Source: Pseudomonas sp. WJP1 (GTDB lineage Bacteria; Pseudomonadota; Gammaproteobacteria; Pseudomonadales; Pseudomonadaceae). Taken from it: 64,000 nucleotides of DNA. The notes under the pieces are model-generated. The model ran no database searches. It saw only the letters and a program-made list of their open reading frames with translations, and was not told where the DNA came from. Positions 30,739-43,656 of this stretch are shown here, piece after piece (position 1 is the first letter of the stretch; every line of letters begins with the position of its first letter). Where the stretch lies: the NCBI RefSeq assembly GCF_028471945.1, contig NZ_CP110128.1, positions 5,483,001 through 5,547,000 on the forward strand, read 5' to 3'. The position numbers were made by a program, and so were the translations under genes.

Positions 30739-31731
30739 TTAACGATTTGGCGTGGACGCGATCAGGCCGGCCGCCAGTGCCAGCTGCCACAACCCGCGTT
30801 CGGTGGCCTGCTCGGCCAAGGTCACCCGCGCAAAACCGCAGGCATCGAGTGCGCGGCTGTAGCGGCTGCACAGTTGGGAATTGCCGATGAGGATGATCGA
30901 AGGCAGGTGCACGCTGTTGCGGCGACGGCGCTGCACGCAGGCCAGGGCCGACAGTTCATGGCCGATCAACAGGCCGGACAGGTAATCCGCTTGCGCCGTG
31001 GCGCTGAGTTCACCGGTGAGGCCGAGGCTGCGGGCGCTGAACAAGGTCGACAGGGGGCCGATTTCGCCGTCTGCCGACAACGCCACCTGCACGCCGCGAT
31101 CGAATGCATCCGCATCGAATGACGCGCCGCGCTGTTGGGTACGCCCCAGGATGCTGTGTTCGCTGAGCACGGCGAAGACTTCGCCGGTCATGAAGGTATC
31201 GAAATGCACGATGCAGCCGTTGGCCACTTCCACCCATTTCGAATGGCTGCCCGGCAGGCCGATCAGCAGATCGCTGCCCGCCTCGCCCGCGAGGTTCTGC
31301 AAGACGCCGAGCACCTGGGTTTCTTCGCCGCGCATCACGTTCGGCAGGCGCGAACGCTGGATCACCCCCGGCACGATGTGCACATCGACACCGCGCAGGC
31401 TGCGAACGGTTTGCAGGGAAGTGCCGAGGCTGGCGACGTTCGCCGGTGTGTCGCGATAGGCCGCTTCACGCCAGCCCTGGGCGCTGCCGACCATGCCGCA
31501 GGCGATCACCGGCAAGTCGGGCTGTTCGTCGAGCCAATCGCCACAAGCCTCATCAAACGCCAGTTCAAAACCGTCGACGCATTCGCGACCGTTGATAATT
31601 CGCGCAGCCTTGGGCAACTGCATGATCCCCGACGACAACGAACGTTGTTCGAGCACCTGGCCGCCCGCGGCAAGTTTGTAAGCACGTAATGAGGTTGTCC
31701 CCCAGTCGAGCGCGATCAATTGCGCCTGCAT
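30739..31731 (-). CDS. dgoK: 2-dehydro-3-deoxygalactonokinase
   Basis: 330 residues. N-terminal ATP-site motif LIALDWGTTSLRAYKL; further family motifs GMVGSAQGWREAAY, LIGLPGSHSKWVEVANG, FDTFMTGEVFAVLSEHSILG and SGLLIGHEL. It phosphorylates 2-dehydro-3-deoxygalactonate at C6 with ATP. First gene of the leftward dgo operon; its promoter is the element at 31770-31829. Confidence 0.95.
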   Translation of the reverse strand: MQAQLIALDWGTTSLRAYKLAAGGQVLEQRSLSSGIMQLPKAARIINGRECVDGFELAFDEACGDWLDEQPDLPVIACGMVGSAQGWREAAYRDTPANVASLGTSLQTVRSLRGVDVHIVPGVIQRSRLPNVMRGEETQVLGVLQNLAGEAGSDLLIGLPGSHSKWVEVANGCIVHFDTFMTGEVFAVLSEHSILGRTQQRGASFDADAFDRGVQVALSADGEIGPLSTLFSARSLGLTGELSATAQADYLSGLLIGHELSALACVQRRRRNSVHLPSIILIGNSQLCSRYSRALDACGFARVTLAEQATERGLWQLALAAGLIASTPNR

Positions 31732-34568: not shown

Positions 34569-34652
34569 CATCGCTGGCAAGCCAGCTCCCACAAGTGAGC
34601 ACATAGTCTGTGATCACCATAGAACCCTGTGGGAGCTGGCTTGCCAGCGATG
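34569..34652. repeat. REP inverted pair
   Basis: CATCGCTGGCAAGCCAGCTC at the left and its reverse complement GAGCTGGCTTGCCAGCGATG at the right. It lies between two convergent genes and extends to just before the PfkB stop. Confidence 0.88.
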
Positions 34653-34669: not shown

Positions 34670-35590
34670 TCAGGTCTTCCTGATCAACTCATCCACCTCA
34701 GCAGTTCCCGGAGAAGTCGCCGGCCCCCAGCGAGTCACCGCCAAAGCCGCTGCCGCATTGGCCCTTTGCGCGGCATCAAGCGCAGACAACCCCTGCGCCA
34801 GCCCCGCCACGAACACCCCGGCGTGGGCATCACCGGCGCCATTGCTGTCCACCGCCTGCACCTTGAAACCTGGTACATGTCGCCGCTCGCCCTGCTGATC
34901 AATCCAGCATCCTTGGGGCCCGTCGCGCACGACCATGAGCACATCGCGCGGTAAATGCTCGACCAGCCGATCCAGCGCCTGGTCGATGTCCGTTGCGCCG
35001 GTGAACTTCAGCGCCTCGACCGCATTGCTGGTCCACACGTCAATGCGCGCCAGCAACACCCGCATCAGCGGCGCATCCGGCGAATCCACCAGCGGCCCCG
35101 GATCGAACACCACGTTGATCCCGCCCGGTAATGCCAGCACCCAATCCACCAGCGCCCGCGCCTTCCCCGCCTGCAGGAGGCTGTAGCCGCTGACGTAGAC
35201 ATAATCGCCCGCCTCGACCGGCACGCTGGCCAGGTCTTGCGCCGTCAATTCGCCTTCGGCGCCGATGTAGGACACGAAGCTGCGTTCGGCCGAGGCGTCG
35301 GTGATCGCCACGCAGATCCCGGTATCGCGCTCGGCGGGATGAATGATACCGATGTGGATACCTTCGGCCAGCATCGCTGCGCGGGCCAGATCGCCGAAAC
35401 GCCCGGTACCATGCCGACCGAGATAAACCACCGGCAGACCGTTACGTTGCGCGGCGGCCATCACATTGAAACCGCCCCCGGCTTCGAAGCTGGCGGACTG
35501 CGCCAACACGTCGCCCCCCGCTTGCGGCAATTTATCCACGGCCATGACCAGGTCGATGATGACCTGGCCGGTGTGCAGCATCTTAGGCAT
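34670..35590 (-). CDS. PfkB family carbohydrate/nucleoside kinase (YegV-like)
   Basis: 306 residues. Ribokinase family: GGGFNVMAAAQRNG for sugar binding, and the catalytic-base/anion-hole motif VDSNGAGDAHAGVFVAGLA. Such kinases phosphorylate ribose, fructose or nucleosides. It overlaps the permease gene by eight bases and closes a four-gene operon with an ADP-ribosylglycohydrolase and a GntR regulator, the same set as E. coli yegUVW. A ribosyl compound released by the hydrolase is the likely substrate (inference). Confidence 0.9.
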   Translation of the reverse strand: MPKMLHTGQVIIDLVMAVDKLPQAGGDVLAQSASFEAGGGFNVMAAAQRNGLPVVYLGRHGTGRFGDLARAAMLAEGIHIGIIHPAERDTGICVAITDASAERSFVSYIGAEGELTAQDLASVPVEAGDYVYVSGYSLLQAGKARALVDWVLALPGGINVVFDPGPLVDSPDAPLMRVLLARIDVWTSNAVEALKFTGATDIDQALDRLVEHLPRDVLMVVRDGPQGCWIDQQGERRHVPGFKVQAVDSNGAGDAHAGVFVAGLAQGLSALDAAQRANAAAALAVTRWGPATSPGTAEVDELIRKT

Positions 35591-37049
35591 GAGCGTTCTC
35601 GATCAGCGCAGCACGACGATCCTTCGCCCCGCCGAGTAGCAGGTAAATGCCACCGGCGACCACAAAGGTCACGATCCAGCCGAGGCCGTTATGCCCCAGC
35701 CACGAGTCGGACAGGAAACCCTTGAACCAGACGTTTTCTGCCGTGGTGCCGATGGTGGTAAAGCTGAAACCGAGCACGATCGCCACCGCCCAGGCACCGA
35801 ACGCGCGCCACTCGACGCCGCCGCGATACCAATAGGCGCTGGTTGGGCTCACATCCAGCAAATCCTTGGGGCTGTAGTAGTGACGATGCATCAGATCGAC
35901 CACGAAGATCCCGACCCACGCGGTGATCGGCACCGCCAACAGGGAAATAAAGGTGATGAACGGACCGTAGAAACTGTCGGCGATCAGCATGAAGTAAATC
36001 GAACCGGCGAAGATCGCCACGATGTCCACCACCACGGCGTAGACGCGCTTGACCTTCAGGCCTAGGGTCAGCGTGGTCAGGCCGGCGGAGTACACCGACA
36101 GGTTGTTCGACAGCAGCAGGCCACCGAAGGCGGTGATCAGGTACGGCACGGCCATCCAGGTCGGCAGCATGTCGCGGATGGCGATGATCGGATCGGTGGC
36201 CTGGGCCAGGTCGTTGTTGCCCACCGACAGCAAACCGCCGAGGGTGATCAACAGCACCAGTGGAATGCCCGCACCGAACGCCGCCGATGCCACCAGGCGC
36301 ACGGCCTTGACGCTGCGGTGTTGATAGCGCGACATGTCCGCGCCGGCGTTGGCCCAACCGATCCCGGTGCCGGCCGCCATGGTGCCGATGCCGATGATCA
36401 TCGCACTCATTGGCGCCGGTGTAGCGTTGAACACCGCACTCCAGTCGATGGTGGCGCAGAGGAAGCCGCCAACCAGAATGTTCAGTGCGCCGAACACGTA
36501 GGTCGCCCACTTCTGGATCACCAGCAACGTGGCGTGACCGAGGCCGGACACCGACAAGGTCAGCAGCACGAAAATCGCGATGAACACCAGGGTCAGCAAC
36601 GGCGCGCTTTTGGCTTCCACCGGCGAACCGAACAGGATCGAGCACAGTGACAGCAACACGAACGCCGCGGTGGTGGTGTTCACGGTTTCCCAGCCCAGGC
36701 GCGACATCAGCGACACCAGGGTCGGGCCGATATTGCCACGCACGCCGAAGATGGCGCGGGACAGGGTCAGGCTCGGCGCGCGGCCGCGACGACCGGCGAT
36801 GGAAATGATCCCGACCACCGCGAAGGAACCGGCGGCACCGAGGATCGCGACGATGACCGCCTGCCAGATCGCCAACCCGCGAAACGCCACGAGGGTCGCG
36901 CCCAGCGGCAGGCCGAGGATGGAAATGTTGGCGGCGAACCAGACCCAGAACAGCTGCAGCGGATGCCCGTTGCACTCGGCCTCCGGCACCGGCTCGATGC
37001 CGCGGGTTTCCAGTTGCCCGGCGCTCTGCCCGGCGTTCGATGAACTCAT
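35583..37049 (-). CDS. NCS1 family permease (cytosine/purine/nucleoside type)
   Basis: 488 residues, about twelve helices. NCS1 features: WFAANISILGLPLGATLVAF in helix 1, a GRRGRAPSLTLSRAIFG loop, and NLSVYSAGLTTL in the middle. The group carries cytosine, purines, allantoin, hydantoins or nucleosides with Na+ or H+. The ATG at 37049 has AGGAG eight bases upstream; a longer in-frame start at 37088 is rejected. The position between hydrolase and kinase genes suggests it imports the N-glycoside degraded by them. Confidence 0.9.
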   Translation of the reverse strand: MSSSNAGQSAGQLETRGIEPVPEAECNGHPLQLFWVWFAANISILGLPLGATLVAFRGLAIWQAVIVAILGAAGSFAVVGIISIAGRRGRAPSLTLSRAIFGVRGNIGPTLVSLMSRLGWETVNTTTAAFVLLSLCSILFGSPVEAKSAPLLTLVFIAIFVLLTLSVSGLGHATLLVIQKWATYVFGALNILVGGFLCATIDWSAVFNATPAPMSAMIIGIGTMAAGTGIGWANAGADMSRYQHRSVKAVRLVASAAFGAGIPLVLLITLGGLLSVGNNDLAQATDPIIAIRDMLPTWMAVPYLITAFGGLLLSNNLSVYSAGLTTLTLGLKVKRVYAVVVDIVAIFAGSIYFMLIADSFYGPFITFISLLAVPITAWVGIFVVDLMHRHYYSPKDLLDVSPTSAYWYRGGVEWRAFGAWAVAIVLGFSFTTIGTTAENVWFKGFLSDSWLGHNGLGWIVTFVVAGGIYLLLGGAKDRRAALIENAHA

Positions 37050-37116
37050 GAAAAATGCTCCTGTTGCCATTTTTGTGGTTGTGGGCAAATCAGATTTTTA
37101 GAGTCGACAATGCCCC

Positions 37117-37217
37117 CTGTAGGAGCGAGCCTGCTCGCGATGGACGTGAACGATAACGCGGGTTTCCTGATCAACCGCGTCGTCCTGAAGTCCATCGCGA
37201 GCAGGCTCGCTCCTACA
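37117..37217. repeat. REP inverted pair inside the hydrolase-permease operon
   Basis: CTGTAGGAGCGAGCCTGCTC and its reverse complement, about 48 bases between arms. It lies between the ADP-ribosylglycohydrolase stop and the permease start, so the hairpins would be transcribed within the operon. Confidence 0.88.
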
Positions 37218-37251
37218 GGGGAATGCATTGCTCGCGAAGGCGTCAGTCCTG

Positions 37252-38250
37252 TCAGCGCAAAGCCAACAGTCCTTTCACCAATGGCTCAAGCTCCAGATCA
37301 TTGACGGCCTTGACCTTCTCGATCATCGCCAGCGGCCAACTCTGCAGCCCCAGGCAGGCCCCCAGCATCGCACCCAGAATTGCCGCAATGGTGTCGGTGT
37401 CGCCACCCAGGCTCGCCGCCATGCACAGCGCCTCAAAGGCACTCATTTCGCCGATGGCCACCTGCTGGGCCAGGGCAAACGACACCACCACCGACTCCTG
37501 CGAAGCCACCGAGGTGCCGATCACGTCGTACAGCAAATCGGCGAGCAACGCCTTGTCACTGTCGACGCTGATGCTGCGCGCCCAACTGATGCGCGAAGCG
37601 ATGCGTCCGCCGGCCACCCAGTGGCCATGGCCTTCGGCTTGCTGGGCGATTTGCTGGCCGAGGTTCAGCGCCTCGCCCAGGTCCATGCCGTTGATCCCCG
37701 CGGAAACCACCGCCGCCACCGCCGCCGCACTGGAAATTCCCAACGTGGTGTTATGGGTGACTTGGCAGGCCTGCACCACGGCATAGATGAAACGCTCGGG
37801 ATTGGCCACATCCGCGGCAATCCCGACCGGGGTGATCCGCATCGCCGCGCCATTGGTGGTGCCGTAGCGCCCGGCTTCTTCGGGTGAATGGCCGGCGAGG
37901 ATCATTTCGATCGCGCGCTTGGTCGAAGGGCCGAGCAAGTCCTGCGAGCCCTTGGCCTGCATCACTGCTTCCCATTCGATCAAGCGTTGTGCGAGGACCG
38001 AAGGTTCGATGTTGCCTAGACCCTCGACCAGCAATTGACCGACCAGAATGGCCTGCTCGGTGTCGTCGGTGATCGAGCCCTTGGGCATATTGGCGGCGAT
38101 CGGCTGATCGGGACCGGCATTTTCAAGGTCGGTGATTTCGCCGAAGCGCGCCTGGATCTGGGCGCGGCTCAGGGATTGAGTCGGCATGCCCAGTGCATCG
38201 CCCAGGGCCAGGCCATAGAACGCGCCAAGCGCACGATTGAGCGCCGTCAT
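37252..38250 (-). CDS. ADP-ribosylglycohydrolase family protein (YegU-like)
   Basis: 332 residues, nearly the size of E. coli YegU. Metal-binding motifs are GSITDDTEQAILVG in the first third and SLGGDTDTIAAILGAMLGA near the C-terminus, as in ADP-ribosylhydrolases and dinitrogenase reductase-activating enzymes. It should cleave an N-glycosidic bond of a ribosylated compound. The ATG (MTALNRALGAFYGLALGDALG) at 38250 overlaps the GntR stop (ATGA); the longer upstream reading has no family similarity and is rejected. Context points to nucleoside-like catabolism rather than protein de-ADP-ribosylation. Confidence 0.9.
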   Translation of the reverse strand: MTALNRALGAFYGLALGDALGMPTQSLSRAQIQARFGEITDLENAGPDQPIAANMPKGSITDDTEQAILVGQLLVEGLGNIEPSVLAQRLIEWEAVMQAKGSQDLLGPSTKRAIEMILAGHSPEEAGRYGTTNGAAMRITPVGIAADVANPERFIYAVVQACQVTHNTTLGISSAAAVAAVVSAGINGMDLGEALNLGQQIAQQAEGHGHWVAGGRIASRISWARSISVDSDKALLADLLYDVIGTSVASQESVVVSFALAQQVAIGEMSAFEALCMAASLGGDTDTIAAILGAMLGACLGLQSWPLAMIEKVKAVNDLELEPLVKGLLALR

Positions 38251-38960
38251 TTCGACGGCCCGAACTGCAGGTGCAGGCGAAAATGCACAGGGTCGAGCAG
38301 GCTTTCCACCTGTTCCATGAAGCGGTTTTGCCGGTCGTAGGTGGTGCGCAAGGCTTTGAGGAACACCGTGCCGACCGGACGGCCCAGCAATTCGGCATCT
38401 TCGGCGTTCAACGGCTCGGCGCCGATCCATTGATCGCCGCGCTCGCCGATGTAGCCATAAGCGGCCAGGGTGATGGTCAGCGAGTTATCGATCAAGCCAA
38501 CCCGCGGCAGGCTTTCCAGGCCACCGGTAGCGGGCATCAAGGAGCGTTCGAGGGAGACCAGCGTGCCATCGTTGGAACGCCGGCGACGGTCCAGGGTGAT
38601 GAACTGGTCGGTGCCGAAACGCGGCAGCAGGTCAGGACGGGTCACCGCCTCCAGCCGCAGCACTTCGGTATTGATCAGCGCGCCGCTGTCGGCCAGGGCC
38701 TGGGCCCAGCCGCTGCGCTGGTCGAGCGCCACACCGTCGAAGGTGACGATGGAACCGACTCCGCTTTGCGTCGCAATGTAGTTGCGCCGTTTCAACTCGG
38801 CCAGCGCTTCACGCAAGGTTCCTCGGCTGACTTTGAATTCTTGAGCCAACTGATGCTCGCCCGGCAGGTGAAAACCGTCCTCCATGAGACCGCTTTCAAT
38901 GCGCCGGATGAGTTCGTCGACCACCCGTTGTTTCTTGTCGAATCGTACCTGTCTAATCAT
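38247..38960 (-). CDS. GntR family regulator with UTRA domain (YegW-like)
   Basis: 237 residues. Winged helix VVDELIRRIESGLMEDGFHLPGE and VSRGTLREALAELKRRNYI at the N-terminus, then a UTRA effector domain (DQFITLDRRRRSNDGTLVSLE, FLKALRTTYDRQNRFMEQVE). First gene of the hydrolase/permease/kinase operon and coupled to the hydrolase, so it very likely controls it. The ATG at 38960 lacks a good ribosome site; an in-frame TTG at 38996 is an alternative. Confidence 0.88.
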   Translation of the reverse strand: MIRQVRFDKKQRVVDELIRRIESGLMEDGFHLPGEHQLAQEFKVSRGTLREALAELKRRNYIATQSGVGSIVTFDGVALDQRSGWAQALADSGALINTEVLRLEAVTRPDLLPRFGTDQFITLDRRRRSNDGTLVSLERSLMPATGGLESLPRVGLIDNSLTITLAAYGYIGERGDQWIGAEPLNAEDAELLGRPVGTVFLKALRTTYDRQNRFMEQVESLLDPVHFRLHLQFGPSK

Positions 38961-39043
38961 GTACAAATTGAAACCGAAACAGCCTGAGGCGGGCAAGAAA
39001 TATTTACGGGAGGTGACAGAAGGAGGGAGGGTACCTACATAAC

Positions 39044-39134
39044 CTGTGGGAGCGGGCTTGCCCGCGAAGGGGTCGGCACATCCAACATCTATGTGTCAGA
39101 TAAGCCGCCATCGCGGGCAAGCCCGCTCCCACAG
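39044..39134. repeat. REP inverted pair
   Basis: CTGTGGGAGCGGGCTTGCCC and its reverse complement GGGCAAGCCCGCTCCCACAG. A GGGCTTGCCCGCGA variant of the window's main REP type. It follows the ABC permease gene. Confidence 0.88.
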
Positions 39135-39145
39135 GTTTTGGGGCG

Positions 39146-40117
39146 TCAGCGTTGTTTGAGGCGGTCGATGACGACCGCCAGCAACAGGATCGAACCCCGA
39201 ATCACATACTGGTAGAACGTATCGATGTTCTTCAGGTTCATCGCGTTCTCGATGATCGCCAGGATCAACACCCCGGCAATCACATGCCGGATCATGCCGA
39301 TCCCGCCACTGAGCGACACGCCGCCGAGCACGCAGGCCGAGATCACCGTCAGCTCGAAACCCTGGCCGATCATCGGCTGGCCCGAGGTCATGCGCGATGC
39401 CAGGATCACCCCGGCCAGCGCGCCGATCAGGCCGTGCACGGCGAAGATGATGATCTTGGTGCGGTCAACGTTGACCCCCGCCAGCAGTGCCGCTTCCTGG
39501 TTGCCACCGATGGCCATGGTGTTGCGCCCGTAGGTGGTGTAGTTGAGCAGCCAGCCGAAGAACAGGAAGCAGACAATGGTAATCAGGATCGGCACCGGCA
39601 CGCCGAATAACTGGCCGTTACCGAACACGAAGAACGACTCCTGGGACACCCCCACCGCCTTGCCGTTGGCGAAGATGTAGGCCAGGCCGCGCACGATCTG
39701 CATGGTCGCCAGCGTGGTGATCAGCGCATTGACCCGTAGCTTGGCAATCACGATACCGTTGATCAACCCGACGATCAGCCCCATCGCCAGCGCCGCGCTG
39801 ACACCAAGGAAGACGCTGTCGGTGTCGCGCATCACCACGGCGGCAACCACCCCGGCGCAGGCGATCACCGACCCCACCGACAAGTCGAAATGCCCGGACG
39901 CCAGGCAGTACAACATGGTGCACGCGGCGATCCCGGTGGTGGAAATCGCCAGGCCCAGGCCGCGCATATTCAACGGCGAGAGGAAGTTGTCGATCAGCAA
40001 GGTGCACAGCACGAAGATACCGACGGCCGCCAGCAGCATCACCCAGTCGTCGAGAAAGCGCCGCAGGTCCAGGGGTTTGCGTGCACTCGGCAGGGTTTCG
40101 TTTTGGGTTGTCATCAT
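39146..40117 (-). CDS. araH: Sugar ABC transporter permease (AraH-like)
   Basis: 323 residues, eight to ten helices. BPD_transp_2/RbsC-AraH family: LGLAISTTGIAACTMLYCLASGHFDLSVGS, NGIVIAKLRVNALITTLATM, ILASRMTSGQPMIGQGFEL. Partner of the ATPase and binding protein directly upstream. Start ATG at 40117 with AGAGG; an in-frame GTG two codons earlier is too close to it. Last gene of the transporter operon. Confidence 0.92.
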   Translation of the reverse strand: MMTTQNETLPSARKPLDLRRFLDDWVMLLAAVGIFVLCTLLIDNFLSPLNMRGLGLAISTTGIAACTMLYCLASGHFDLSVGSVIACAGVVAAVVMRDTDSVFLGVSAALAMGLIVGLINGIVIAKLRVNALITTLATMQIVRGLAYIFANGKAVGVSQESFFVFGNGQLFGVPVPILITIVCFLFFGWLLNYTTYGRNTMAIGGNQEAALLAGVNVDRTKIIIFAVHGLIGALAGVILASRMTSGQPMIGQGFELTVISACVLGGVSLSGGIGMIRHVIAGVLILAIIENAMNLKNIDTFYQYVIRGSILLLAVVIDRLKQR

Positions 40118-40126
40118 AGTCACCTC

Positions 40127-41671
40127 TCAGTTCGCCACGCCGTCAGCGCGTTGGCGCGGCAAAGCCAGTTGCAGCAGGTTGGATTCATTGGCCTGTTCGC
40201 GGCTCAGTTCGCCGCGCAGCGCGCCTTCGCACAACACCAGGATGCGGTCGGAAATACCCATCACTTCCATCAGGTCGCTGGACACCACGATCACCGCAAT
40301 GCCGCTGGCGGCCAGGTTATGGATGATCTGGTAGATCTCGGCCTTGGCGCCGATGTCGATGCCACGGGTGGGCTCGTCGAGCAGCAGGACTTTCATCGGC
40401 ATCGACAGCCAGCGGCCGAGAATGGCCTTCTGCTGGTTGCCGCCGGACAGGAACTTGATCTGTTGCCCGGCGTGTGGTGTTTTCACCTTGAGCGCCTTGA
40501 TCTGCTTGTCAGCGTTGCCTTTCTCCCACAGGCCACGCAATAGGCAACCGAAGGTCGAGTGCGCACCTCGGGCGCTGATATTGATATTCTCGGCGACGCT
40601 CGCCAGCGGCAGGATGCCCTCCTTCTTGCGGTCCTCGGGACACAGCAGGATCCCGGCGGCAATCGCATCCCGGGGCGAGCGCAATTTCAGTTCATGGCCG
40701 CGCAGTTCAAGGCGTCCGGCGCTGTTGCGCTCCAGGCCACTGAGCAGGCGAAACAATTCCGTGCGCCCTGCGCCGACCAGGCCGAACAAGCCGAGAATCT
40801 CGCCCTTGTGCGCGTCGAAACTCACCGGCTCGCGCAGGCCAGGCCCGAGCAGGCGGTCGACCCTCAATGCCACCGCGCCGCGCGGGCGCGGGCGGTAATC
40901 GTAGATGTCCTGGATGTCGCGACCGACCATGCAGGTGACCAATTGATCGTGGGTCAACTCGCTCATGTCTTCGAAGGTGCGCACGTAACGGCCGTCCTTG
41001 AACACCGTCACCGCATTGCAGATGCGGAACACTTCCTCCATGCGATGGGAGACGTAGAGCACGACTTTGCCTTCGTCGCGCAGCCGACCGATGATCGCCA
41101 TCAAGCGATCGATCTCCCGCGCCGACAGGCTGCTGGTGGGCTCGTCGAAGGCGATGACATGCGCGCCACGGGACAAGGCCTTGGCAATCTCCACCAGCTG
41201 CCGCTGACCGAGGGACAGGCGCCCGACTTTCTCCTGCGGGTCGATTTCGTCGGCCAGGCCCCTGAGACAGGCCAGGGCTTGCTGGCGCAAAGTGCCGCGA
41301 TTGATCAGGCCGAAACTGGCCGGCAGGTGGCCGAGAAAAAGATTCTCCGCGACCGTCATTTCCGGCACCAGGTGCAGTTCTTGATGGATAACTGCAACGC
41401 CGCTGCCGATGCTGTCGGCCGTGGATTTGAAGGCCATCGTCTGGCCGCCGATCTGCAGGTCGCCGCTGCTCGGGGTGTAGGCGCCGCCGAGGATTTTCAG
41501 CAAGGTCGACTTGCCGGCGCCGTTCTCGCCCATCAAGGCATGAACCTGCCCCGGATGGGCGACGAAGTTGATGTTGTCCAGCGCCTTCACGCCGGGAAAG
41601 GTCTTGCCGATCCCGTTGAAGCGCAAGCTGCCGCCGGCGGAGTGTTGCTGTACTTGGGTTTGCGCGTGCAT
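40127..41671 (-). CDS. araG: Sugar ABC transporter ATP-binding protein (AraG-like)
   Basis: 514 residues, two fused ABC domains as usual for monosaccharide importers. First domain: Walker A GENGAGKSTLLKIL, signature LSLGQRQLVEIAKAL, Walker B VIAFDEPTSSL. Second domain: degenerate Walker A (LVGAGRTELFRLL), signature FLSGGNQQKAILGRWL and Walker B VLLLDEPTRGID. Energises uptake with AraF/AraH-like partners. The ATG at 41671 behind GAGG is preferred to a GTG two codons upstream. Confidence 0.94.
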   Translation of the reverse strand: MHAQTQVQQHSAGGSLRFNGIGKTFPGVKALDNINFVAHPGQVHALMGENGAGKSTLLKILGGAYTPSSGDLQIGGQTMAFKSTADSIGSGVAVIHQELHLVPEMTVAENLFLGHLPASFGLINRGTLRQQALACLRGLADEIDPQEKVGRLSLGQRQLVEIAKALSRGAHVIAFDEPTSSLSAREIDRLMAIIGRLRDEGKVVLYVSHRMEEVFRICNAVTVFKDGRYVRTFEDMSELTHDQLVTCMVGRDIQDIYDYRPRPRGAVALRVDRLLGPGLREPVSFDAHKGEILGLFGLVGAGRTELFRLLSGLERNSAGRLELRGHELKLRSPRDAIAAGILLCPEDRKKEGILPLASVAENINISARGAHSTFGCLLRGLWEKGNADKQIKALKVKTPHAGQQIKFLSGGNQQKAILGRWLSMPMKVLLLDEPTRGIDIGAKAEIYQIIHNLAASGIAVIVVSSDLMEVMGISDRILVLCEGALRGELSREQANESNLLQLALPRQRADGVAN

Positions 41672-41734
41672 AGCCACCTCATTTCACAGAGCAGGCAACC
41701 CCGCTGCCGGGGCCGCCGATGAAATCAACCGGCC

Positions 41735-42739
41735 TCAGTTCCACAGGCCGATCTTTTCCAGTTCCTGCTTGAAGTTGTCGCGCGTGATCAGTGTCACGTC
41801 GTCCATGGCGGTGTATTTCGCCGGTTCTTTGCCGCTGGTGACCCACTCGTACATCATGCTGGCGGTGTTGTAGCCCTCGATGTGCGGGCTTGGCAGCATC
41901 GACCCGTAGAAGCCGCTGTTGGGTTTCTTCAGCTCGCCAATGGCGTCGGTACCATTGATGCCGATACCGATCACGTTCGCCGCGGTAAAACCGGCGGCTT
42001 CAGTGGCACGTACGCCGCCCAGCACGGTGTTGTCGTTCATGCCGCCGATGATCAGGTTCTTTGCCGCGCTCGGCAGCTTCACCAACGCCGAGTTGGTGGC
42101 GTCCATGCTGCCCGGTACGTCGAGGGTTTTCAGGGCCGCGAACAGGATGTGATCCTTGGGCATGCCGGCATCTTCCAGCGCCTTGACCGAGCCGTCGGTG
42201 CGTTTCTTACCGGTGTCGAGTTCGTTGTAGGTGTTGATCACCGCGTAGGTGTCCTTCCACTCCCAACCGCGTTTTTTCGCTTCAGTGGCCATGGCGCCGC
42301 CTTGCTTCTGGCCGACTTCGAAAGCGGCCATGCCCAGGTACGGAACGTCTTCCATGAACTTGCCGTTGGCATCGACGAAGCGGTCATCGACAGCGATCAC
42401 TTTCAAACCGTTGAGCTTGGCCTTGGCCATGATCGCAGGGCCCAGGGACACGTCCGGCGGACAGATCACGAAACCCTTGGCCCCGTTCGCCGCCAGGCTG
42501 TCGATGGCCGACAGGGTTTTTTCGCCGTCAGGCACGGCGATCTTGATCAGGGTAAAGCCTTTTTCCTTGCCAGCCTTTTCAGCGAAGGCCCATTCGGTCT
42601 GGAACCAGGGTTCTTCCGCTTGCTTGACCAGAAAACCGATTTTCACTTCCTCGGCCGCCAGCAGCGTGCTGCTGAGGCTGAACGCGCTGACCGCCACGGC
42701 GGCGCAGCACAGGGAACGGATGGCATGACGACGATTCAT
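41735..42739 (-). CDS. araF: Arabinose/galactose-type periplasmic sugar-binding protein
   Basis: 334 residues. Signal peptide CCAAVAVSAFSLSSTLLAAEE. The mature sequence is close to E. coli AraF as I recall it (KIGFLVKQAEEPWFQTEWAF, IAVPDGEKTLSAIDSLAANG, GMNDNTVLGGVRATE, LITRDNFKQELEKIGL). AraF binds L-arabinose and also D-galactose, and the surrounding galactonate genes favour D-galactose here. AAGGAG precedes the ATG. A candidate GntR operator lies just upstream at 42776-42800. Confidence 0.93.
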   Translation of the reverse strand: MNRRHAIRSLCCAAVAVSAFSLSSTLLAAEEVKIGFLVKQAEEPWFQTEWAFAEKAGKEKGFTLIKIAVPDGEKTLSAIDSLAANGAKGFVICPPDVSLGPAIMAKAKLNGLKVIAVDDRFVDANGKFMEDVPYLGMAAFEVGQKQGGAMATEAKKRGWEWKDTYAVINTYNELDTGKKRTDGSVKALEDAGMPKDHILFAALKTLDVPGSMDATNSALVKLPSAAKNLIIGGMNDNTVLGGVRATEAAGFTAANVIGIGINGTDAIGELKKPNSGFYGSMLPSPHIEGYNTASMMYEWVTSGKEPAKYTAMDDVTLITRDNFKQELEKIGLWN

Positions 42740-42775
42740 AAGCTGACTCCTTGTTGTTTTTGTTGAGCGTAGTGC

Positions 42776-42800
42776 CAATAGTCATATCGTATGATGATTG
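42776..42800. promoter_or_regulatory. Candidate FCD/GntR operator before the sugar-binding protein gene
   Basis: An imperfect palindrome of 25 bases: CAAT, two bases, TCATA, TCG, TATGA, two bases, ATTG. It resembles the site at 45597-45611 in front of the GntR gene (TCAT/ATGA arms), though the spacing differs by about two bases. Its position suggests a separate regulated promoter for araFGH downstream of the SDR gene. Confidence 0.55.
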
Positions 42801-42834
42801 GATTTCAGGCGCAGTTTTGCACCTGAAATCCAAT
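42797..42834. terminator. Intercistronic hairpin after the SDR gene (no T run)
   Basis: ATTGGATTTCAGG (42797-42809) and CCTGAAATCCAAT (42822-42834), a perfect 13-base stem with a 12-base loop, four bases past the SDR stop. No T tract follows on the minus strand, so it may protect the SDR mRNA or attenuate rather than fully terminate. Confidence 0.55.
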
Positions 42835-42837
42835 GAG

Positions 42838-43656
42838 TTAGTCGTGGTACATCACTGAGCGCCCGCCATCGATGGTGATGCACGACGCGTTGATGAACGG
42901 CGCTTCATCACTGGCCAGGAACACCGCGGTCATGGCCACCTCGATCGGCTGGCCGATGCGGCGCGGCGGGTGCAGGTCGAAAGCGCGCTGGCGTTCGGCA
43001 TGGGGGTCGGCAAAGCCGTTCCAGTAGTCGACGTTCAATTGGGTTTCGATATAGCCCGGCGCGATGGCGTTGACGCGAATGCCCTTGGGTGCGTATTCGA
43101 TACCCAGGGCGCGGGTCAGGCCGAGCAGGCCGTGCTTGGCCACAGGGTAAGGGAAGCAGCCTGGAATGATGTGGGTGGAATGGGTCGAGGCAATGTTGAT
43201 GATGCTGCCGATGCCCTGCTCGATCATCTGCGGCAATACCGCCTTGCAGCCGTACCAGGCGCCATCCAGGTCGATGGCGAAGCAGCGGCGCCAGTCTTCC
43301 TCGGTCATTTCCAGCGGATCACGGAACACGTTGACCCCGGCACAGTTGACCAGCACGTCGATCCGCCCGTGACGCTCGACCGCCAACCGGGCCATCGCTT
43401 GCAGGTCCTGCGGCTGCGCAACGTCGGCCTTGATCGCCACCACGTCGGCCCCTTTGCCCCGCCACTGCGCCGCGACATTTTCGACTTTTTCGGCCTGGAT
43501 ATCGCTGATGACCAGCTTGGCTTGCTGGGACGCGAAGGTCGCCACTATCGCCTCGCCGATGCCTTGGGCGGCACCGGTCAACAACACGACTTTGTTTTTC
43601 AGGCGCTCGCCCTTGGGGGGTTCGGGCACCGGTGGTAACGAAAGAGGTTCAGCCAT
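42838..43656 (-). CDS. SDR sugar dehydrogenase, probable D-galactose (L-arabinose) 1-dehydrogenase
   Basis: 272 residues. Cofactor motif VVLLTGAAQGIGEAIVATFA, NCAGVNVFRD, Ser in IINIASTHST, and YPVAKHG for Tyr/Lys, so the catalytic set is complete. It is the first gene of the leftward unit with the AraFGH-like transporter, and next to a lactonase, so oxidation of imported galactose (or arabinose) to its lactone is the likely role. Its promoter closely resembles that of dgoKAD, which supports galactose. Exact substrate is inferred. Confidence 0.82.
   Translation of the reverse strand: MAEPLSLPPVPEPPKGERLKNKVVLLTGAAQGIGEAIVATFASQQAKLVISDIQAEKVENVAAQWRGKGADVVAIKADVAQPQDLQAMARLAVERHGRIDVLVNCAGVNVFRDPLEMTEEDWRRCFAIDLDGAWYGCKAVLPQMIEQGIGSIINIASTHSTHIIPGCFPYPVAKHGLLGLTRALGIEYAPKGIRVNAIAPGYIETQLNVDYWNGFADPHAERQRAFDLHPPRRIGQPIEVAMTAVFLASDEAPFINASCITIDGGRSVMYHD

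Follow-up and report, generated by a model that had tools for sequence, protein, structure and literature searches.

The window analysed here, a stretch of 64,000 nucleotides from Pseudomonas sp. WJP1 (contig NZ_CP110128.1, positions 5,483,001 to 5,547,000), contains an operon at 34670-38960 that encodes a GntR-type regulator, a hydrolase of the ADP-ribosylglycohydrolase (ARH) fold, an NCS1-family permease and a PfkB-family kinase. The four genes lie on the minus strand and are transcribed in this order. They are tightly coupled, with an overlap of 4 bases between the GntR and ARH genes (38247-38250) and of 8 bases between the NCS1 and PfkB genes (35583-35590). The ARH and NCS1 genes are separated by 202 bases, which contain an inverted pair resembling repetitive extragenic palindromic (REP) elements. 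Coordinates, gene order and tight coupling agree with an original prediction made from the sequence of the window, as does the presence of this REP pair, whose 32-nt arms are 100% complementary. The genes are the following:

38247-38960, minus strand: GntR/UTRA transcription regulator of 237 amino acids, first gene (PF00392, E 3e-15; PF07702, E 7e-10)
37252-38250, minus strand: ARH-fold hydrolase of 332 amino acids, kin of YegU and proposed riboside 5'-phosphate N-glycosidase (PF03747, E 1e-58)
35583-37049, minus strand: NCS1-family permease of 488 amino acids, of a subfamily tied to ARH loci (PF02133, E 5e-55)
34670-35590, minus strand: PfkB-family kinase of 306 amino acids, kin of YegV and proposed riboside 5'-kinase (PF00294, E 6e-46)

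The gene set is conserved among relatives. From 57 genomes searched for the hydrolase, 22 contained a match at E 1e-3 and 17, including the window's own genome of 7.0 Mb, a strong one (69-100% identity), all of them in the same genus. In 16/16 other genomes with a strong match (69-94% identity), the same four genes were found in the same order within the 16-19 kb examined in each, which argues against a chance arrangement. The permease is the best kept of the three aligned proteins, with a mean column identity of 94% compared to 84% for the hydrolase and 78% for the kinase. This conservation supports the prediction that the genes form a set kept together for an unusual compound of the riboside type, and the outcome that would have spoken against it, separation of the genes in relatives, was not observed. 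A search for close copies of the operon in plasmid records gave no match. The version with NCS1 is found, in addition, in Paraburkholderia, Plesiomonas, Aeromonas, Paenibacillus, Clostridium, Lactobacillaceae, Ktedonosporobacter and Streptomyces.

In E. coli, homologs of three of the proteins are encoded by yegTUVW. The identities are 31% between the hydrolase and YegU, 31% between the kinase and YegV, and 31% over 130 amino acids between the regulator and YegW (also called GgaR), and proteins of all three types are present together in the window operon. Both systems fit a scheme of importer, hydrolase and kinase. They differ in the transporter, which is the major facilitator superfamily (MFS) protein YegT in E. 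coli and an NCS1 permease in the window, where no YegT-like match was found within 4.2 kb of the ARH gene. They also differ in the position of the regulator gene, which is convergent at the far end in E. coli and heads the operon in the window. The earlier equation of the operon with yegTUVW holds at the level of families, given the 31% identities, and not beyond that level.

To describe the partners of the hydrolase more widely, ARH loci were collected from the same-genus relatives, a phylum draw of 398 genomes (20 read of the 26 with hits at E 1e-40), plasmid records (16 read), named genomes (437 confirmed loci, of which the best 80 were used) and a draw of 398 genomes around locus L188 (36 genomes; 40 of 44 places read). 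Removal of 4 identical loci from 174 left 170 distinct ones. Partner genes were assigned by tblastn with proteins from this analysis within 4.2 kb or 5.2 kb of the hydrolase. Enterobacterial and same-genus loci are over-represented and the labels depend on the reference proteins, with which reservation YegT with PfkB occurs in 49 of the 170 loci and NCS1 with PfkB in 44, one further locus having both NCS1 and YegT. Other loci combine PfkB with an energy-coupling factor (ECF) transporter (17), a PotABCD-like ATP-binding cassette (ABC) transporter (13), PnuC (9) or an MFS carrier of the STM4065 type (1). An AIRS-domain kinase accompanies ECF in 8 loci, and both kinases do so in 1. Loci without a recognised kinase carry a phosphotransferase system (PTS; 5), YegT (3) or ECF (2), while no transporter was recognised in 17 (10 with PfkB, 1 with the AIRS kinase and 6 with neither). 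In 126/170 loci there is a GntR match close to the hydrolase. Next to the NCS1 loci, no extra gene recurs in more than a few of the 80 representatives.

The distribution of these partners was compared with trees of the hydrolase, from which near-copies were dropped at 82% (77 rows) or 72% (75 rows), L161 being left out of both. In the 77-row tree, the YegT-linked rows form one starred set (17 rows, with two rows that have no recognised transporter). This set adjoins NCS1-linked rows from Plesiomonas, Aeromonas, Photobacterium, Serratia, Providencia, Lonsdalea, Prodigiosinella and Chromobacterium. Both sides of the midpoint-rooted tree have rows linked to NCS1: those of Bacillota share the side of YegT, and those of the window, Paraburkholderia, Streptomyces and Ktedonosporobacter lie opposite. 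As NCS1 occurs on both sides and YegT in one nested group, NCS1 is the more widespread partner and probably the older one, which YegT would have replaced in one lineage; because the root is a midpoint, this direction of exchange is likely only. The earlier view, in which NCS1 was the swapped-in transporter of a yegTUVW-like pathway, is thus not supported, and it is the NCS1 version, rather than the one of E. coli, that is suggested as the older form. At least 9-10 transporter changes are needed among the labelled rows, and the ABC, PnuC, ECF and PTS partners are most simply read as further exchanges.

The permease itself is a clear NCS1 member (187.5 bits to PF02133, gathering score 23.5). It scores 162-543 bits against the NCS1 proteins of six distant ARH loci (543 for Streptomyces, 271 for Plesiomonas, 162 for L. 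plantarum), compared to 72 bits for the other NCS1 hit in its own genome, 24 bits for CodB and no hit for AllW. A close likeness to these characterised nucleobase carriers is therefore absent, and the NCS1 proteins at ARH loci constitute one subfamily.

From the comparative evidence, the following pathway is proposed. The NCS1 permease would import an unusual N-riboside, the PfkB enzyme would phosphorylate its 5'-OH, and the ARH-fold hydrolase would then cleave the N-glycosidic bond, yielding the free base and ribose 5-phosphate, which would enter the pentose phosphate pathway. GntR would act as a repressor of the operon that it heads, bound to a site that overlaps its own start codon, and the substrate or an intermediate would release it. 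We regard the import, phosphorylation and cleavage as evenly poised between right and wrong. The gene set, its conservation, the exchange of transporters around a constant hydrolase, the lack of a recognised kinase at PTS loci and the conserved residues were computed; that the kinase precedes the hydrolase, the products and the repression are what we infer from them. The same order of steps is known from the PsuT-PsuK-PsuG route for pseudouridine, in which import is followed by a PfkB-type kinase and by a glycosidase acting on the 5'-phosphate, with ribose 5-phosphate as product. In contrast to the proposed ARH step, PsuG breaks a C-glycosidic bond, and its fold is unrelated. The protein families are known, as is the operon type in E. 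coli. Among the matches listed from the openly licensed literature, with subscription papers outside the search, no paper assigns a biochemical function to the kin of YegU or YegV or describes the NCS1 form. If the reading is true, it would give the ARH family a small-molecule job and narrow the question of what yegTUVW does to a few testable substrates and one defined sequence of steps.

That phosphorylation comes first is suggested by the distribution of the kinases. A PfkB or AIRS-domain kinase was recognised in 143/148 loci with a non-PTS transporter and in 0/5 with a PTS (Fisher p 4e-7, kinship ignored). When kinship is counted on the tree, there are 3 independent gains of a PTS, 3/3 without a kinase, which falls short of significance (p 0.25); the contig-end loci L156, L231, L255, L263 and L266 were left out of this pair test. 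The PTS loci are Enterococcus L097, Listeria L098, L188, L268 (a weaker match of 32%) and L108 on a Klebsiella plasmid, which has a mannose-type PTS. As a PTS phosphorylates its sugar on entry, a kinase would be redundant there if its role is to phosphorylate the imported glycoside. Furthermore, PfkB and AIRS-domain kinases, which have unrelated folds, alternate in otherwise alike ECF operons, and relatives of both are reported to act on intact ribosides (PMC6461909; PMC3161100). CblS, the name given together with CblT to a kinase and EcfS pair on pMF1298-5 (PMC6722938), is cited as an alpha-ribazole kinase (PMC6461909), and the PfkB protein STM4066 of Salmonella STM4065-4067 is reported to be an aminoimidazole riboside kinase encoded in the same operon as the ARH protein STM4067 (PMC3161100). 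The missing kinase at the PTS loci and the action of related kinases on intact ribosides thus favour phosphorylation first.

In the opposite order, which was the one originally predicted, the hydrolase would split the imported riboside and the kinase would phosphorylate free ribose. An N-glycosidase and a ribose kinase would likewise give ribose 5-phosphate, and the best NCBIfam model of the window PfkB protein is indeed ribokinase. Its score of 120.6 bits is, however, far under the equivalog cut-off of 299.65 and does not place it with RbsK, and a separate true ribokinase (364.9 bits) is encoded elsewhere in the genome. It also counts against this order that no kinase was recognised in 5/5 PTS loci, where the sugar would enter phosphorylated, and that the AIRS (CblS-like) and STM4066-like kinases of sister loci resemble enzymes for intact ribosides. 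Hydrolysis before phosphorylation was therefore not borne out and is unlikely, but it is the strongest of the alternatives.

The substrate is the weakest part of the proposed import-kinase-hydrolase pathway, and the pointers to it disagree between benzimidazole-like, imidazole and nicotinamide ribosides. Benzimidazole alpha-ribosides are suggested by the CblT/CblS-like partners, an imidazole riboside by STM4066 and nicotinamide ribosides by the PnuC transporter. The latter is present in 9 loci, and 5/5 scanned proteins exceed the cut-off for nicotinamide riboside transporters. In the starred set of the window's hydrolase (18 rows), the only partners are NCS1 and ABC, so that neither the CblS/CblT nor the PnuC pointer comes from its branch, and substrates may differ between ARH branches. 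Considering the linkage, ARH1 and ARH3 are reported to cleave only alpha-linked ADP-ribose (PMC6309922), and ARH3 rapidly splits the N-glycosidic bond of alpha-NAD (PMC8319183). For this reason alpha-ribosides are favoured, and, as a bold guess, alpha-configured heterocyclic ribosides of the alpha-ribazole or alpha-nicotinamide riboside type would be the substrate. Taken further, the loci could represent an alpha-nucleoside catabolic module present in several phyla, which would import alpha-N-ribosides shed by others (alpha-ribazole, other cobamide-type alpha-ribosides or alpha-nicotinamide riboside), phosphorylate them at the 5' position and cleave them by ARH-fold alpha-nucleotide N-ribosidases. 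This wider reading is tentative and well short of even chances. If true, the ARH family has a large metabolic branch besides the erasure of ADP-ribosylation, in which importer and kinase swap freely while the hydrolase stays, many ARH-fold proteins annotated as signalling enzymes are enzymes of carbon use or vitamin salvage, and there is a degradation route for alpha-ribosides such as alpha-ribazole, a compound putatively detected in exometabolomes and bloom water (PMC5643483).

The CblT/CblS system for alpha-ribazole salvage shares a similar EcfS protein and AIRS-domain kinase with 9 distinct ECF loci, in which these lie beside the hydrolase. In its known role, by contrast, this system supplies alpha-ribazole phosphate for B12 assembly, and the tested cob genes were not found at ARH loci. 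In the window, the search up to 4.2 kb from the ARH gene revealed neither EcfS nor an AIRS-domain kinase, and both are confined to sister loci. A gene order of GntR, EcfS (CblT-like), AIRS kinase (CblS-like), EcfA, EcfT and ARH is complete in L229, L230, L232, L233, L235 and L236; in L231 the same operon is cut by the contig end, and the ARH proteins of L232 and L182 are the same. Loci L229-L233, L235 and L236 would thus represent CblT/CblS-type uptake sets for ribosides, among which the tested cob genes were not found. Relatives of the AIRS kinase also occur in 7 records of the plasmid collection (Listeria 2, Levilactobacillus 3, L. plantarum 1, Cytobacillus 1), and 4/4 contexts read, one per genus, contain B12 genes. 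In a draw of Actinomycetota, CblS-like kinases were present in 4/296 genomes, 2 of which have ARH within about 5 kb (G452, corresponding to L174, and G1014). No ARH was found near the kinase in G1121 (a 7.1-kb contig with an adjoining PfkB match) or in 13 kb read of G883.

Salvage of ordinary beta-nicotinamide (or nicotinic acid) riboside, by uptake, phosphorylation to the mononucleotide and cleavage to nicotinamide and ribose 5-phosphate, is a further alternative, to which the PnuC partners point. On an L. plantarum plasmid (L103, 2821-9193), genes for an NrtR-type regulator, nicotinate phosphoribosyltransferase and an isochorismatase-family hydrolase precede the ARH-NCS1-PfkB trio, a possible link to NAD salvage, and the NCS1 proteins of yeast include a nicotinamide riboside carrier. 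Kin of PnuC, on the other hand, also carry other vitamins. One L. plantarum record shows these NAD genes, and the 8 kb read around the trio of L. fermentum L104, with only 1.1 kb upstream, show none. As ARH1 and ARH3 in addition act on alpha and not on beta linkages (PMC6309922), beta-riboside salvage is improbable, somewhat more so than hydrolysis first.

The active site of the hydrolase is compatible with the proposed cleavage of a riboside 5'-phosphate. The predicted structure has the ARH fold, with low confidence for residues 35-59. The metal residues T61, D62 and D63 are present in 170/170 loci, D284 and D286 in 169 and T287 in 167, so that the TDD and DxDT motifs are both found. Also kept in 170/170 loci, as mapped through an alignment with ARH3, are the Gly and His of the phosphate site, which bind pyrophosphate in ARH1 and ARH3 (PMC6309922). 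The adenine-binding motif ExxA of DraG (PMC7050489), in contrast, occurs in 2/170 loci, the window having R128/T131. As a yardstick, only L018 has ExxA among 11 other ARH-family sequences from L018-L030, and the motif therefore marks DraG and says little on other ARH proteins. With metal ligands and phosphate Gly/His kept and ExxA rare, the site looks fit for 5-phosphorylated ribose without the adenine grip of DraG. ARH1, ARH3 and DraG thus share the fold, the binuclear metal residues and the phosphate contacts with the window protein (alpha-NAD cleavage being a property of ARH3), which differs from them by lacking the DraG adenine motif, by a Gln in the Glu-flap and by its place in a metabolic operon. 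The fold and metal site would also suit an ordinary DraG/ARH eraser of protein or nucleic-acid ADP-ribosylation that lies beside a transporter and a kinase by happenstance. Such an explanation is very unlikely, as importer and kinase are both recognised in 143/170 loci across phyla, the DraG equivalog TIGR02662 scores 94.5 bits, outside the DraG subclass with its cut-off of 337.05, and ExxA is this rare.

Several observations weigh against uptake, 5'-phosphorylation and ARH cleavage of an alpha-riboside as proposed. The glutamate of the Glu-flap (E41 in ARH3, E28 in DraG) is Gln25 in the window; the position is E in 125/170 loci and Q in 36/170 (22 NCS1, 13 ABC and 1 ECF). This residue is reported as crucial in ARH3 and minor in DraG (PMC7050489), so that it is not required of every ARH member, and the initial attack is described as superfluous for the N-glycosidic bond of alpha-NAD (PMC8319183), for which kind of bond a Gln may suffice. 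With respect to the kinase, YegT occurs without one found in two Lonsdalea loci, L151 and L161 (the latter with a short ARH match), none was found in L234, where the EcfT match is partial only, and neither transporter nor kinase was recognised in L148, L154, L155, L246, L263 and L265. L156 and L231, also without a recognised kinase, end with the contig. In L148, L151, L154, L155 and L161, from Brenneria, Lonsdalea and Symbiopectobacterium, ARH and GntR are kept while no kinase was found, nor in three of them a transporter; this may reflect decay or a kinase located elsewhere. Regarding the substrate, no convincing cob gene was found beside 173/174 ARH loci (7 cob proteins, the window itself being outside the scan), and the CbiZ hits in 11 loci each sit on an ABC ATPase gene. 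The genome of the window encodes CobT, and a hydrolase of alpha-ribazole phosphate could drain the host's own B12 synthesis. The likeness to CblS/CblT is only 26-34%, and the ARH rows concerned do not group with that of the window. A strictly alpha substrate is also at odds with aminoimidazole riboside and ordinary nicotinamide riboside being beta-nucleosides.

Finally, E. coli GgaR is reported to sense ADP-glucose, which relieves its DNA binding and repression of yegTUV, and loss of ggaR raises glycogen (PMC10819704). A role of the set in ADP-glucose or glycogen turnover, as proposed for E. coli yegTUVW on this basis, is the least probable alternative, since the authors themselves find no yegTUV gene with a clear function (PMC10819704), the ECF, PnuC and PTS partners of the same hydrolase would be left unexplained, and the window regulator matches YegW over only 130 amino acids at 31%.

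In addition to the genes, the following elements were found in and around the operon:

38945-38964, minus strand: operator-like imperfect palindrome GTACATGATTAGACAGGTAC spanning the GntR start codon, with TTGTAC before ATG the same in 17/17 same-genus sequences
38993-38997, minus strand: CTTGC, possible -35 region, with TTGC the same in 17/17 and the preceding C in at least 14
37114-37221: REP-like inverted pair between the hydrolase and permease genes (arms 37114-37145 and 37190-37221; 32 nt, 100% complementary)
34569-34652: REP-like inverted pair 3' of the kinase gene, at the end of the unit (25-nt arms, 100% complementary)
39038-39140: REP-like inverted pair upstream, between an araH-type permease gene and the regulator (33-nt arms, 94% complementary)

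Both TTGTACATGA over the GntR start codon and the TTGC of CTTGC are unchanged in 17/17 same-genus upstream regions, and the arms of the palindrome are perfect in L040 (GTACATG-ATTAGA-CATGTAC). The palindrome is a putative operator and CTTGC a putative promoter element; as part of the palindrome is coding, its conservation is not wholly regulatory. Between 38945 and 39000, the conserved TTGC, an A/T-rich stretch and an ATG without an obvious ribosome binding site are found, and the regulator mRNA may be leaderless. The operon is located in a sugar-use neighbourhood, with a gene of the 2-keto-3-deoxygalactonokinase family at 30739-31731 and, at 39146-43656, a cluster of araH, araG, substrate-binding protein and short-chain dehydrogenase genes. 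This araFGH-type ABC cluster was considered as a part of the system. It lies immediately upstream of the operon in the window and in L031-L038. In L039-L046 it is absent from this place, L039 having such a set on the opposite side, and it is therefore taken as a mere neighbour.

Salmonella STM4065-4067 (L105, assigned by annotation) also combines a carrier, a PfkB kinase and an ARH protein, with a GntR gene next to them. It differs from the window operon in its MFS carrier and in its hydrolase, which is about 28-33% identical to the others compared and forms a long branch. STM4067 is reported in a Salmonella paper as a gut-persistence factor in pigs, without a biochemical function.

At other loci, additional genes were observed. 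A gene of 377 amino acids, annotated as porin in L096 (5934-7067), has kin in L073 (10552-11685) and L102 (6021-7124); it lies beside the regulator gene in each case, two of the loci being of the NCS1 and one of the ABC type. It is chiefly next to ECF loci that genes for an aldolase, a dehydrogenase and an FGGY kinase are found repeatedly. In L241 (609-1583, 7016-11508), a gene for a DeoR/LsrR-like regulator lies upstream of ECF, PfkB and ARH genes, which are followed by genes for a DhnA-type aldolase, a zinc dehydrogenase and an FGGY kinase, and kin of these genes are present in L239, L245, L248 and L253; the sugar phosphate may have another fate at such loci. Tandem ARH-fold genes with ABC ATPase matches nearby occur in L256, L262 and L264.

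Two of the PTS loci have a distinct arrangement. In Listeria L098 (5084-8927), a PRD-domain regulator and a beta-glucoside-type PTS precede the ARH-fold gene, which is followed by catalase. This locus resembles bvrABC, in which case BvrC would belong to this hydrolase group. As in the window, the ARH-fold protein is associated with a transporter, which it directly follows here, but the latter is a PTS instead of NCS1, no kinase was recognised, and the regulator is of the PRD and not of the GntR type. The locus on Klebsiella plasmid L108 (2008-7731), which is about 5 kb away from genes for tellurium resistance, combines ARH and GntR with the mannose-type PTS and two amidohydrolase-family genes, and no kinase was recognised in it.

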